Below are positions 5,730 through 52,500 of a DNA stretch of 64,000 nt, piece by piece. Source of the stretch: Chlorobiota bacterium (GTDB lineage: Bacteria; Bacteroidota; Ignavibacteria; Kapaibacteriales; UBA961); assembly GCA_014191195.1 (NCBI GenBank), contig BJGZ01000009.1, positions 1 through 64,000 of the forward strand. The letters are read 5' to 3'. The translations under genes and the position numbers were made by a program. Numbering within the stretch: position 1 is the stretch's first letter; every line of letters begins with the position of its first letter. The notes below the pieces were generated by a model. That model was not told where the DNA came from and did no database searches. It worked only from the letters and a program-made list of their open reading frames with translations.

Positions 5730-6173
5730 TTAAAATGGAATATCGTTTTCTGACATATTCGAAGAAAACTCTCCTTTAAAATCAATTGGTTCAGGTGCGG
5801 GAAGCTCATCTGATTGCGATTGCTGCGGTTTTGGATCTAATAACATAATATTATCTGCAACTATTTCTGTTATATACTTTTTTATCCCTTCTCTAGTATC
5901 ATAACTTCTATTGCGAATCTTACCTTCAATAAATAACTTAGAGCCTTTATGTACTAATTTATGTACTATATCGGCTAGGTTTCTGTATTGGGTATTCCAC
6001 ACAACAATATTATGCCAATCTGTGTGCTCGTGTAATGTTCCGTTTTTGTCCTTCCATGAATCTGTAGTTGCTAAGCTAAAAGTAGCAACCCCCATTCCTG
6101 ATGATGTAAAGTTGAATTCTGGTTGTTTACCTACATGGCCAATCAACATTACTTTGTTCAATGATCGTGACAT
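5730..6173 (-). CDS. ssb: single-stranded DNA-binding protein
   Basis: A 147-residue SSB. The OB-fold (about residues 3-112) begins SLNKVMLIGHVGKQPEF and includes SWKDKNGTLHEHTDWHNIVVW and GSKLFIEGKI. A flexible Gln/Pro-rich linker leads to the acidic tip MSENDIPF, which binds partner proteins in replication and repair. Length and tip are typical. It is transcribed alone, facing the sulfur cluster across a shared terminator, and its 5' region up to 6290 is a candidate promoter zone. Confidence 0.96.
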   Translation of the reverse strand: MSRSLNKVMLIGHVGKQPEFNFTSSGMGVATFSLATTDSWKDKNGTLHEHTDWHNIVVWNTQYRNLADIVHKLVHKGSKLFIEGKIRNRSYDTREGIKKYITEIVADNIMLLDPKPQQSQSDELPAPEPIDFKGEFSSNMSENDIPF

Positions 6174-10752: not shown

Positions 10753-11430
10753 ATGATACATGTACATTTTTCTGAATCTTTGCCATCTGCTATCATATGT
10801 TTAAATGGTTCTTTACCTAAAGCAGAGTTTTATACGTTTTTTCCGGATTGTCCTATTATTGCCGCTGATGGAGCTGCTAATACTCTTTTATTACAAGGTA
10901 TAATCCCTTCTGTTATAATTGGAGATTTAGATTCCTTTACTCCTTCTTTATTACCAGATTATTGCAATACAACGATAATTAAAGAAATCAATCAAGAGAT
11001 AAATGATTTTGAAAAATCCTTGAATTATGCACTTAAAAATCACTTTAACAGTATCTTAATTGTCGGGTTTCAAGGTGGAGATTTAGAACATACTTTAAAC
11101 AATGTTAGTGTCTTTTGGAAACTCTTTTCTCATTTTTCAAGTATTATTATAGCTGATTTACATAATCGAATTGGTATTCCATTCGATCAGAGTTTTACTT
11201 TTTCATCAGGTAAAATTGGAGAAATTGTTTCCCTTATTCCTTCTCCCTCAGCTTTGATTACTACAAAAGGATTAACATGGAATCTTCAAAAAGAAGTGTT
11301 AGAACTTAGTATAAAAGAAGGTGCTAGAAACGTAGTATCTGGTCTCTTTCCAGAAATACATATTCATTCAGGAAGACTTTTGTTTTTTTGTGAAGCACGT
11401 TTTCCTTTGATTCCAGAAATCCACATATAA
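10753..11430 (+). CDS. thiN: thiamine pyrophosphokinase
   Basis: A 225-residue protein that transfers pyrophosphate from ATP to thiamine, giving thiamine diphosphate. The catalytic-domain motifs are in order: ICLNGSLP, IIAADGAANTLL, IIGDLDSF and the metal-binding NDFEKSLNYAL. VGFQGGDLEHTLNNV follows, where the family has G.GGR.DH. The C-terminal half (about residues 130-215) is the thiamine-binding beta domain, with GEIVSLIPS, TTKGLTWNL and ARNVVSGLF. The cofactor serves the transketolase next door and the E1 enzyme at 43 kb. No TPP riboswitch is visible upstream. Confidence 0.9.
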   Translation: MIHVHFSESLPSAIICLNGSLPKAEFYTFFPDCPIIAADGAANTLLLQGIIPSVIIGDLDSFTPSLLPDYCNTTIIKEINQEINDFEKSLNYALKNHFNSILIVGFQGGDLEHTLNNVSVFWKLFSHFSSIIIADLHNRIGIPFDQSFTFSSGKIGEIVSLIPSPSALITTKGLTWNLQKEVLELSIKEGARNVVSGLFPEIHIHSGRLLFFCEARFPLIPEIHI

Positions 11431-11754
11431 TCCCTCTTATATATCTTATATTTTTATCATTAAATAATAGTTATAGTAATATACATTGTGGATAAGTGGA
11501 AAAACCTGTGTGTAATAATATATTTCTATATAAACTCTTGAGTTTTCTTAAGTTCTATTCTCTATTTTGATGTGGAGAATATGTTAATTAAGTTGTCTTT
11601 AATTAACACCTATGTTAATAAAACAAAAACACATTTTAGTTGTTAACAATATCCAATATACAAACTATGTTTTTCCACATATTTACTCCTTGAGTGGATA
11701 AATATGTGTATAATTACAAACTCTATAACTTCAATTATATCATAGGTTTACATA
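11431..11754. other. gene-free AT-rich segment with a DnaA-box cluster (candidate replication origin)
   Basis: This 324-bp stretch has no gene. It holds three exact matches to the DnaA-box consensus TTWTNCACA: TGTGGATAA at 11487-11495 (minus), TTTTCCACA at 11671-11679 (plus) and TGTGTATAA at 11705-11713 (minus). One-mismatch copies lie at 11495-11503, 11571-11579 and 11693-11701. With A and T each near 0.34, I estimate about 0.05 exact matches by chance in this length. The stretch is very AT-rich, as an unwinding element should be, and contains a perfect 10-bp inverted repeat. No dnaA gene is in the window, so origin function is a hypothesis. Confidence 0.45.
11582..11608. repeat. perfect inverted repeat inside the DnaA-box segment
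   Basis: TGTTAATTAA at 11582-11591 and its exact complement TTAATTAACA at 11599-11608 flank a 7-base centre. The arms are nearly all A/T and no T run follows, so a terminator is unlikely. A protein site or unwinding element is more plausible. Confidence 0.6.
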
Positions 11755-12195
11755 ATGGTAATTGCTATTGGCTCAGATCATGCTGGTTTTACAAGAAAAA
11801 CAGAAATTACAGACTATTTACAAAAGACAGGATATAAGATTATCGATGTAGGTACATTTTCTTTAGTCTCGGTTGATTATCCTGATTTTGCAAAAGCTGC
11901 TTCTTTATTGGTTTCAGAAGGAAAAGCAGATAAAGCTATTATTGTTTGTGGTAGTGGAATTGGTGTTTCTATCACAGCCAATAAAGTCCAAGGAATTAGA
12001 GCTGCAAATTGCTTAACTGATGAAATGGCATGTTTAGCTAGACAACATAATAATATTAATGTGTTAACCTTAGGAGAACGCCTTGTAGATAAAGAAAAGG
12101 CTTTATCTATAGTACATGTATTTCTTAATACAGATTTTGAAGGTGGACGTCATACAAATAGAGTTAATAAAATACATTCTGATACAGGGTGTTAA
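11755..12195 (+). CDS. rpiB: ribose-5-phosphate isomerase B
   Basis: A 146-residue RpiB/LacAB-family isomerase that interconverts ribose 5-phosphate and ribulose 5-phosphate. It opens MVIAIGSDHAGFTRK. The catalytic cysteine and anion hole are in IIVCGSGIGVSITANKV, and phosphate contacts are expected in RQHNNINVLTLGERL and the end GGRHTNRVNKI. Length and motif order are standard. It feeds the same pentose phosphate pathway as the split transketolase 3-6 kb away. Its stop overlaps the stop of the convergent anmK gene by four bases. Confidence 0.95.
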   Translation: MVIAIGSDHAGFTRKTEITDYLQKTGYKIIDVGTFSLVSVDYPDFAKAASLLVSEGKADKAIIVCGSGIGVSITANKVQGIRAANCLTDEMACLARQHNNINVLTLGERLVDKEKALSIVHVFLNTDFEGGRHTNRVNKIHSDTGC

Positions 12196-16776: not shown

Positions 16777-18630
16777 TTAACGTTTCAATGCTATAACCAA
16801 TAGAGATATATCTGTTGGTGATACACCGGGTATTCTAGAGGCTTGTCCTATTGATATAGGTTTAATTTTCATTAATTTCTCTTTACTTTCTTTAGAAAGT
16901 GAATGTACCCTTGAAAAATCATAATTGTCAGGAATTAGCTTGTTTTCAAGTTCTTTGAATTTTGAAATTTCAACTAAATGTCTAGCAATATAACCTTCAT
17001 ATTTGATCTCAATTTCTGCTTGTTTTAAAATACTATCAAAAGTCGTGCCTTTCCACTGATTTAAAGCAGAAGAATTTTCACGAATCAGTGATAACGTTAT
17101 AGCTGGTCTTTTACACATTGATATTAACTGTTCAGATTCTTTAGTGATTGATTCCCCAACAGAAGCATAAATAGTATTTGCTGTTTCTTTGTCTATTTTG
17201 ATATTTCTAATTTCGGATAGCATTTTATTTTTTGATCTAAGTCTTTGTAGTACATAGACTTGACTACCAGTATGTAGTCCATAAACACTTGTTTTATCAT
17301 ATAATCTTTCAAATGCATTGTCTTGTCTTAATAATAATCTATACTCAGCCAACGATGTAAAAATCCTATATGGTTCATCGCTACTTTTATTTACCAGATC
17401 ATCAATCATAACACCAATATAGGCATCAGCTCTACTTAAAATTAGTTCGGGGAGTCCTTTTATTTTAGATGCAGCATTTATACCAGCTATTAATCCTTGA
17501 GATGCAGCTTCTTCATATCCAGATGTACCATTAATTTGTCCTGCCATATATAAACCGTTTATCTTCCTACTTTCTAATGTATAATGCAATTGATAAGGAT
17601 AGAAGAAATCATATTCTACTGCATATCCATATTTTTCAATAATTGCATTTTCTAAACCAGGAATTGTTTTTAATGCTCTTTCTTGGATGTCTTTTGGCAG
17701 ACTTGTAGAAAATCCATTTACATATATTGTATTTGATTGTAATGCTTCTGGTTCTAATACTATTTGATGCGAAGTCCTGTCTTGAAATCTATATATTTTA
17801 TCTTCAATTGACGGACAATAGCGCGGACCTCTGCCTGTTATCAACCCTGTAAACATTGGCGAATCTATAAATCCTTGTTGGAGTATTTCATGCGTATTTT
17901 CATTTGTATGTGTGGAATAACATACAATACTATTTTTTACTTGTTGAGATTTATGAGAAAATGGAATTGGTGGATCATCGCCACATTCTATGTTGGTTTT
18001 GCTAAAATCTACACTTGATGAATATATCCTAGGTGGTGTTCCTGTTTTTAATCTTCCTATTTCTAATCCAAATGTAGATAATGAATCTGATAATCCTTTT
18101 GCAGACTTCTCTTGAACTCTTCCACCTTCTGTAACTTCCTGTCCAGTATAAAGCTTTCCATTCAAAAATGTTCCACCACACAATATTAATGCTTTACAAT
18201 ATATTGTTTCACCCTGCAAGACAATCCCCTTGATATTATTGTTCTCGCACAAAATTTGAGAAACTGTACCTTCAATTAATGTAAGATTCTTTGTTTCTTT
18301 TAATATTTGTTGTGCATAATATGGATATAGATATTTGTCATTTTGAGATCTAGGCGACCATATAGCAGGTCCTTTAGAAGTATTTAACATTTTAAACTGC
18401 AAACCACTTCTATCAGCAATTAAGGGCATAACACCACCGATAGCATCAATTTCTTTTACAAGATGTCCTTTAGCTGACCCACCAATTGAAGGGTTACAAG
18501 ATAATCTACCAATGGTATCTACACTCATAGAAATAAGTGCTGTATTACACCCCATTTTAGCGGTGGCAATACAAGCTTCAATACCTGCATGCCCACCACC
18601 AATTACTATTACATCAAAAGAATTTGTCAT
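16777..18630 (-). CDS. mnmG: tRNA U34 carboxymethylaminomethyl-modifying enzyme MnmG (GidA)
   Basis: A 617-residue flavoprotein that, with MnmE (encoded at 36.7-38.1 kb), adds carboxymethylaminomethyl groups to wobble uridines. The FAD motif VIVIGGGHAGIEACIATAKMG is near the N-terminus. SCNPSIGGSAKGHLVKEID, ILCGGTFLNGKLY, LKTGTPPRI, the cysteine segment GRGPRYCPSIEDK and GYEEAASQGLIAGINAA follow in the family order. Length is standard (about 620-630). The ATG is preceded, within three bases, by a parS-like palindrome that occupies the place of a normal ribosome-binding site. Confidence 0.97.
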   Translation of the reverse strand: MTNSFDVIVIGGGHAGIEACIATAKMGCNTALISMSVDTIGRLSCNPSIGGSAKGHLVKEIDAIGGVMPLIADRSGLQFKMLNTSKGPAIWSPRSQNDKYLYPYYAQQILKETKNLTLIEGTVSQILCENNNIKGIVLQGETIYCKALILCGGTFLNGKLYTGQEVTEGGRVQEKSAKGLSDSLSTFGLEIGRLKTGTPPRIYSSSVDFSKTNIECGDDPPIPFSHKSQQVKNSIVCYSTHTNENTHEILQQGFIDSPMFTGLITGRGPRYCPSIEDKIYRFQDRTSHQIVLEPEALQSNTIYVNGFSTSLPKDIQERALKTIPGLENAIIEKYGYAVEYDFFYPYQLHYTLESRKINGLYMAGQINGTSGYEEAASQGLIAGINAASKIKGLPELILSRADAYIGVMIDDLVNKSSDEPYRIFTSLAEYRLLLRQDNAFERLYDKTSVYGLHTGSQVYVLQRLRSKNKMLSEIRNIKIDKETANTIYASVGESITKESEQLISMCKRPAITLSLIRENSSALNQWKGTTFDSILKQAEIEIKYEGYIARHLVEISKFKELENKLIPDNYDFSRVHSLSKESKEKLMKIKPISIGQASRIPGVSPTDISLLVIALKR

Positions 18631-18633
18631 TCA

Positions 18634-18649
18634 TGTTTCACGTGAAACG
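18634..18649. promoter_or_regulatory. parS centromere site (ParB-binding palindrome), 15 of 16 bases
   Basis: TGTTTCACGTGAAACG differs from the widely conserved parS consensus TGTTTCACGTGAAACA only at the last base. Bacterial parS sites bind ParB and cluster near the origin, often around gidA/gidB and parAB genes. Here it lies three bases upstream of the mnmG (gidA) ATG. A 16-base near-match is very unlikely by chance in such AT-rich DNA. Confidence 0.8.
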
Positions 18650-49500: not shown

Positions 49501-52500
49501 AGACATGATGCAACTAAAGTTGATATCACAAATGGTTCTACTTCAGGTAATTCATTCTACGATAATAAAGCTCGTTTCTTAATTAGGCTACCAGATGCTG
49601 CTAATACTAAAGGTACATTAGCAGGTGGATTTGGAACAGGTATTGGTGGTGTTGATACATTACGTGGTAATTATTGGGGCAAAACAGAAGCCAATGTTAC
49701 TACAGTATTAAATACTTTACAACCAGGTTTCAGTTATGGTGGTATTCAAGAAACATTCTTTGTACGTGGCAATGGTGCAACACATTTACGCTTTATCAAT
49801 AAAGCAGCTGGTACATATATAAATCTAACTGAGCAAGGTCCATTTGAATATAATGGTACTAATGCTCCAGGTAGAGTTGGTTTAGATTATGCATATAAGC
49901 CATTAACAGTAGGAACAATTCCTGATACATTGTTAATGCAAGGTTTAGTATATGATATCTTTGATAAAGGTACAGATATTAATACTGCAGATTATTCAAA
50001 CCGTAGAATGTCTCCAATCGAAGACTTTGCAGTTGGTATTCCAGCAAATCTTCAATTATATCCAACAAGTGGTACACAATCTTCTGGAAAACAAATTCGT
50101 AGAACAACACGCGATCCATTCGCAACAGATTCTATGAACTATTCTACAGATAAAGAAAATCTCTTGTGGAGATCAATGCGCAAATTACAATCAGAATTTG
50201 CTATCGATCAAAGAACAAATGAATATACTCATCCTATTGGTTATCCATTATTCTTAGAAGCACGCGCAGCATATAATGGTGCAGATGCTAATCAATCTAA
50301 TGATGATGCCTTATCATTAAATGAATCTGTATTCTTTGTTATTAATGATTCTACTGGCGACTTTATCCGTATGAATATGCGTCAAATGACAGATATTCCT
50401 ACAAAAGATAATGATAATGTATATCCTCGTGAATATCTACGTGGTCGTGTCGATTTTGTAGCTGACTCTTCAACAAGAACAGGTACAACATCACGTGTTC
50501 GTAGAAACTATGAAAGTCTTGCAAATTATGGTGGTACTAATTCATTATTACCAGCTATTGCAGACAATGCAGTTCGTGAAGATAGCTCAGCATTAGCAGG
50601 AAGAAGATATGAAATGGAATTCTCTGGTAATCAATTGGTTTATGATAATAACAATAATGTTGTTTATTCAAATCGTTCAGATTTACCAGCATCAGTAAAG
50701 AATGGTACTAATAATAAGGTTACTTATTTCGCTGGTGAAAAGTTCAGAACACTACCTGTAAGACCTACTGATTATGTACGTGTTGTTTCACGTACAACAT
50801 TGTGGAGAGAAGGTGTTGATGCTGCTATTGCAAAAGGTGTTGGTTTCCGTGTTGGAAGTACAGTAGCTCCTCCAGTATTTACTGGTACAAAGGTGACTGT
50901 AGAAAATCCAAATGTAAGCCCACAGTACATAAGCTCCTTCAAAAACAAAGTATTTGTTAATGAAGATATAAGTTATAATCGTGCTCCAAATAGCAATAAT
51001 AAAGGTCGTGATACACTATTTGTTATTACAGCTATTGATTCTAATAAGTTTTATGATCCACGTTGGGCATTAGACATTGATGCGAACGGTAATGTTAGAA
51101 CTGATAAAGTATTAAAGGAATACAATCAATTAGAATATACATGGTTCCCATTATTCCAAAATCCTAATGGTTCATTTACACCAGATAATGGATCTACTAA
51201 ATTAACAGCATTACGCCGTTGGATGAAAGCTGACACAGTATGGCCATATATTAAGAGAACTTCTCATCCATATTATGGTGCTACAGGACGTATCGAATTA
51301 AAAGGTAAGCCTTCTAATCCATATGTAGTTCCTGGTGGTGAGTTTGTTGAAGTTTCTGCACGTAATTATGCTCCTACATATCGTTCTGCTGATGCTTTAA
51401 ATAGCATTATACTTGCTGATTCAGCATTTAAGAAAAGTATTTTAGGTTCATATTTAACAGATCCTTCTAAACTAGAAGAAACATTCCAAAAAGAAATTGT
51501 TTCAAAGTTTATCTATCTATATCCTTCTTATTTCCATGCTCAAGCTTATGATTCACCAAATAATGCACGTTATTTGAATCAAGATACAATTGACTTTGGT
51601 AATAATGGAAAAATCACATATCGTTTCTCAGTTCATGTAATTGATAGTGTTCCTGTATATTTGACAACAACACAAACAAGTGCTAATTGTCCTATTGCTG
51701 GTGCAAATCAAAATCTATTTGTTGCTAATGTTACAGATAAACTTCGTTTCTTTGTTGACATGAATACAGATGATGAAAAAGAAGATTCAGTTGCACAGAA
51801 TAATGAAGGATGGGATTTCCGATATGGAAGAACATCATATTCATTCTTATCAAAAACAATTCGTCCTTCTGATGACACATCTAGTGATGAACTTTCAATG
51901 GTACGTCCAAATTGGTTAACAGAAAAGTATTATTTCAAAGATGCAAGTGATACTCAAGTAGATGCATTTGCTTATGACTTTACAACATATGGTGTTTTAA
52001 ATGTTCGTATTCCTAGAGCAGAAGCTTTAGCATTACTAAAGCCAGGTGCAAATGTTGATCAACCACACGGTGCATTAAATACTGATTCAATGATGACAAT
52101 CGTAGTAAATGATGGACATTCAGGTGTTAGTTATTTAACGAAAAGAATCTTTATTAATGTTTCACCAACAATAACTAATCAAAATCCATTACCAACAGCT
52201 AAAGAAGGTGTGGATTATAATCCAGCACTTTTAGATCCAGCAAAAGGAATTACATATGAAGATCCTAACTTTGGTCAGGAACAAACATTTGAATTAATTT
52301 ATGCTGCTGAGACACGCGATAGTATTGCAAAAGATCCATGCTTCCCTGAAGCAGGCTACTGGAATTTGAAAGACATCAAAGTTACACCAAACTGGTTGCA
52401 CATTAATCCTAAGAGCGGTTTATTATCTGGTAATCCAGGTGTTAAAGATGCTCCACGTAAAATTGCAACAGGTAATCCTGATACTGTTACAGTATTAATT

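Follow-up and report, generated by a model that had tools for sequence, protein, structure and literature searches.

A predicted DnaA-type replication origin between thiN and rpiB in a Kapaibacteriales genome

The replication origin of E. coli, oriC, combines a cluster of DnaA boxes with an AT-rich unwinding element next to the box TGTGGATAA; mnmG is close by, and dnaA is located elsewhere. The oriC of B. subtilis adjoins dnaA. Enterobacterial oriC sits at gidA-mioC (PMC10225481), and the statement in an earlier note on this DNA that origins without an adjacent dnaA gene are known holds according to the same source. In the published pattern of the basal unwinding system (BUS), a DnaA box lies at most 16 bp from at least three NAN trios (PMC8287927).

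The window analysed here, a stretch of 64,000 bp, covers bases 1-64000 of contig C9 (94,257 bp), which belongs to a MAG of 2.41 Mb in 29 contigs rated 100% complete. The nearest named record, with a 93% identical ThiN protein, is a Candidatus Kapaibacterium MAG. The earlier note had proposed a candidate oriC at 11431-11754. Judging from the sequence, this segment is very probably the chromosomal replication origin, belonging to the known DnaA type and working by an ordinary mechanism.

DnaA boxes and weak DNA in the thiN-rpiB intergenic region

The predicted oriC occupies the entire intergenic region (11431-11754) between thiN, which encodes thiamine pyrophosphokinase (10753-11430, plus strand, Pfam PF04263), on the left and rpiB, which encodes ribose 5-phosphate isomerase B (11755-12195, plus strand, Pfam PF02502), on the right. 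Its earlier description as gene-free and AT-rich is confirmed by the absence of any ORF of at least 60 aa inside 11431-11754 and by an AT content of 77% versus 67% for the window; no Rfam family overlaps the segment either. It contains the densest DnaA-box cluster found, which is kept in the genus and the family.

As the earlier note had counted, the 324 bp hold three exact TTWTNCACA matches and three further sites with at most one mismatch from TTWTCCACA, i.e., six in total. Two of them, the exact box TTATCCACA (11487-11495) and the near match TTTTCCACT (11495-11503), form an overlapping tandem pair on the minus strand (11487-11503, TGTGGATAAGTGGAAAA on the plus strand) that has a single copy in the genome. 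As for the remaining four, the position of TTCTCCACA (11571-11579, minus strand, one mismatch) is kept in the genus, and the exact match TTTTCCACA (11671-11679, plus strand) is an exact TTWTCCACA box in 6/6 aligned genus members. They are followed by TTATCCACT (11693-11701, minus strand, one mismatch) and by the third exact match, TTATACACA (11705-11713, minus strand), at whose aligned position four further members of the genus have a TTTCCACA-type box.

According to the whole-window shuffle, 12.6 exact boxes are expected by chance per 64 kb, or approximately 0.064 per 324 bp. In 5000 dinucleotide shuffles of the segment itself, exact boxes average 0.084 and sites with at most one mismatch 0.28, and no shuffle contained 3 exact or 6 near boxes. 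Among the 324-bp windows in 593 kb sampled from the 2.41-Mb genome, the segment ranks first with 6 sites, followed by a runner-up with 4. According to both the shuffles and the 593-kb scan, the intergenic cluster thus lies beyond chance, as is expected of an oriC.

Three exact DnaA boxes also occur within 44 bp of the murF coding sequence (G000:C1:38012-38055, L062:10012-10055), possibly as a titration or reactivation site. As an origin, this triplet was rejected, being intragenic, common to the sister genome G004 only, and missing in the other five. A box pair at C5:114008/114247, which is without the tandem motif, was rejected as well.

The nearest-neighbour stability scan predicts a DNA unwinding element at 11437-11486 (plus strand, 90% AT). 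On the 94-kb contig it is in practice the 50-bp stretch of lowest stability, the sole rival being near 40.66 kb, and the least stable 324-bp window of the contig begins at 11438. The last base of the element immediately precedes the tandem box pair, so that AT-rich DNA of low stability abuts the boxes, as it does in an oriC. The second extremely AT-weak stretch of the contig (40638-40737) has no box cluster.

Trio-like repeats (TAG-TTA-TAG-TAA-TAT) within the element end 4 bp before the box pair. The order of TAG-TAA-TAT, 4 bp, and TGTGGATAA agrees with the BUS pattern, which chance meets easily in AT-rich DNA. In a set of 25 AT-rich loci, either orthologous or carrying the motif, adenine is most frequent at the 4-bp phase (0.62, versus 0.36-0.52 at the other phases), and the mean DnaA-trio run is 3.32 versus 2.92 by chance, which is a weak signal (P ~0.05, with non-independent rows).

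The perfect AT inverted repeat that the earlier note placed in the middle of the segment is present at 11583-11607 (GTTAATTAA-N7-TTAATTAAC, with 9-bp arms at 11583-11591 and 11599-11607) but is not conserved: its two arms carry a single substitution each in G004, the closest relative, and the repeat is missing from the rest of the genus members. It carries no weight for oriC. An inverted repeat that overlaps it, ATTAACA-CCTA-TGTTAAT (11602-11619), holds its position in 6/6 aligned genus members as TTMACA-N4-TGTKAA or near; in four relatives it approximates TTCACA-N4-TGTGAA, which corresponds to opposed DnaA-box halves.

Conservation, gene neighbourhood and GC skew

Five other genus members and three sister-genus genomes likewise have the cluster in the thiN-rpiB interval. 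All five rpiB-bearing genus members, four of them with only 48-70% protein identity, have the gene order thiN - boxes - rpiB - anmK - dapB, and the order thiN - boxes - rpiB - anmK recurs in the three sister-genus genomes. In a genome of a third genus (G009), rpiB was not detected and the box pair is kept between anmK and thiN; the cluster is therefore separable from rpiB regulation. Altogether, rpiB was not detected in four family genomes (G009, G008, G011, and G013).

The degenerate form of the pair, TGTKGAWAWGTKGAWAA, has 1 copy in the host genome and occurs in 13 of 14 family genomes, with a single copy in 12. Within the family it is located at thiN/rpiB in most genomes checked and at anmK/thiN where rpiB is lost. 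Being both single-copy and conserved among relatives, the pair behaves as expected of an oriC element. Regarding the order as a whole, TGTKGAWAWGTKGAWAA is present in 52 of 123 genomes, and the reversed control pattern gives 4 matches over the same 123. Roughly half of the order, among them every genome of family f2, was without the pair in this search. In the single-contig genome G097 (2.66 Mb), the motif has its only copy at 292360. In family f4, the tandem-box motif adjoins mnmG. One f4 genome, G025, has 18 copies of the motif (TGTGGATATGTTGATAA + TGTGGAAATGTTGATAA), clustered on some contigs and perhaps part of a dispersed repeat.

The conserved origin-neighbourhood gene mnmG (gidA; 16777-18630, minus strand, Pfam PF01134), which recurs in this neighbourhood in relatives, and the parS-like site TGTTTCACGTGAAACG (18634-18649, plus strand, one mismatch) are about 7 kb from the segment, and ssb (5730-6173) is about 5 kb from it, in agreement with the distances given in the earlier note. 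Only two sites in the genome, at 18634 and 50784, have at most 2 mismatches from parS, and both are on C9. The former is the better one, and the latter (50784-50799, two mismatches) lies 39 kb from the predicted origin. In G006, G009, G010, G016, G022, and G036, parS flanks or adjoins mnmG at 1-8 kb from the motif.

The cluster is on C9 and dnaA on C1 (C1:171691), so the two are not adjacent. The host dnaA region shows neither a box cluster nor a clear skew switch. There are no DnaA boxes upstream of dnaA in the host genome or in G004, where they are either lost or were never present; without upstream boxes and without a clear switch, dnaA was rejected as the origin site. In five other genus members (L085, L088, L089, L091, and L202), 2-3 boxes lie upstream of dnaA and perhaps reflect autoregulation. 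Box clusters near dnaA were also observed in the family f8 genomes G020, G028, and G035 (L077, L080, and L082, respectively). In that family an origin at dnaA may persist; the one f8 contig tested, G028:C96, has no clear skew switch.

The sign of the raw skew in the window flips between 11 and 20 kb, and the cumulative minimum lies near 19 kb; gene direction explains both. According to skew breakpoint fits for C9 and G006:C4, there is no strand effect beyond gene direction, and no skew switch is seen at the G006 cluster once gene direction is controlled. GC skew in the host genus is accounted for by gene direction, and the skew minimum neither supports nor refutes oriC. Since no leading/lagging skew is left after this control, the skew-minimum test suggested in the earlier note is uninformative here, and the 29 contigs of the MAG preclude a whole-chromosome curve.

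In relatives of the host, skew does switch at the orthologous locus or at the motif. For the sister-genus contig G010:C1, with gene direction controlled, the best breakpoint is at 20 kb and the cluster at 21.0 kb, a match within ~1 kb; the gain in log units is 69.3 for the best breakpoint and 66.0 for the cluster position. In G022, from another family, the gain equals 31.7 at the cluster and 38.7 at the best point, the switch being broad (50-67 kb, cluster at 50.4). In G016, a complete single-contig genome of family f4, the sole motif copy, at 126310, sits at the point where skew goes from minus to plus, with mnmG and parS next to it: skew is about -0.045 and -0.013 before the motif and +0.04 to +0.09 after it, which is a match within the data resolution. 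As for G023 (family f2), no origin was found; its skew is negative to ~1.1 Mb, and there is no cluster in 1.00-1.12 Mb.

Assignment of the segment

The oriC proposed in the earlier note is supported by the box cluster, the adjoining weakest DNA, the conserved single-copy pair, the synteny (also without rpiB), the parS and mnmG neighbourhood, and the skew switch in relatives, which together lead to the assignment of the segment as oriC. Its position directly upstream of rpiB would also suit a DnaA-controlled promoter or operator for rpiB and/or thiN instead of an origin. Such a role is very unlikely, however, because G009 keeps the cluster and the pair even with no rpiB detected, family f4 has the pair beside mnmG instead, and the skew switch and parS neighbourhood would be left unexplained.

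Clustered boxes alone are no proof of initiation, the murF triplet being another cluster, and they might mark a datA/DARS-like site at which DnaA is titrated or reactivated, with a separate origin not far away. The contig's weakest DNA adjoins the boxes, however, and the cluster is conserved across genera at the G010 skew switch, with the sole G016 motif copy also at the turn, which makes a site of this kind extremely improbable. Equally little probability is given to an origin elsewhere in the vicinity, e.g., in the mnmG/parS intergenic region at 18.6-19.8 kb, or to a bipartite one involving dnaA. The raw cumulative minimum of the window, the f4 box pair beside mnmG, and the boxes upstream of dnaA in several genus members point in this direction. 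No box cluster exists at 18.6-19.8 kb, however, where the raw minimum tracks minus-strand genes; in G010 the switch is at 20-21 kb versus 13.4-15.3 kb for mnmG, and the host dnaA is without upstream boxes.

Proposed mechanism and comparison with known origins

For the segment as oriC, the steps of DnaA binding, unwinding, helicase loading, and ParB action are inferred by analogy with B. subtilis and E. coli. DnaA would bind the boxes of 11431-11754, with the tandem pair (11487-11503) as a platform from which a DnaA filament would grow onto one strand of 11437-11486. The filament would melt this 90% AT element, which would allow helicase loading, and sister origins would be segregated by ParB at the parS site 7 kb away, beside mnmG.

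It appears fairly probable that the Kapaibacteriota origin left dnaA and shifts between families within the mnmG-parS-rpiB neighbourhood, keeping a lineage-specific initiation core: the tandem DnaA-box pair overlapping by one base, whose single copy per genome would make it an origin-finding signature. In the part of the literature that was searched, no published origin for this phylum was found; there is modest novelty in the single-copy signature and in an origin shifting between the neighbourhoods of mnmG and rpiB. The prediction locates the replication origin in an uncultured phylum and suggests an origin that changes neighbours while its core elements persist. The 17-base signature, of which much of the order has roughly one copy per genome, could be used for MAG orientation and for growth-rate estimates from coverage.

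Compared with E. coli oriC, the segment has a similar box cluster, an AT-rich element beside the TGTGGATAA box, mnmG close by, and dnaA elsewhere, whereas its neighbours are thiN and rpiB and its box pair overlaps by one base. Like the BUS of B. subtilis oriC (PMC8287927), it has tandem boxes by a weak AT-rich stretch, trio-like NAN repeats, and a 4-bp gap; in contrast to that origin, the cluster is away from dnaA, and the trios form a short run, weakly above chance. As for the predicted origin of G016 from the sister family f4, the tandem-box motif and the presence of parS next to mnmG are shared. The G016 site differs, however, in lying beside mnmG without an rpiB or thiN neighbour, in a GC-rich genome, and with fewer exact boxes.
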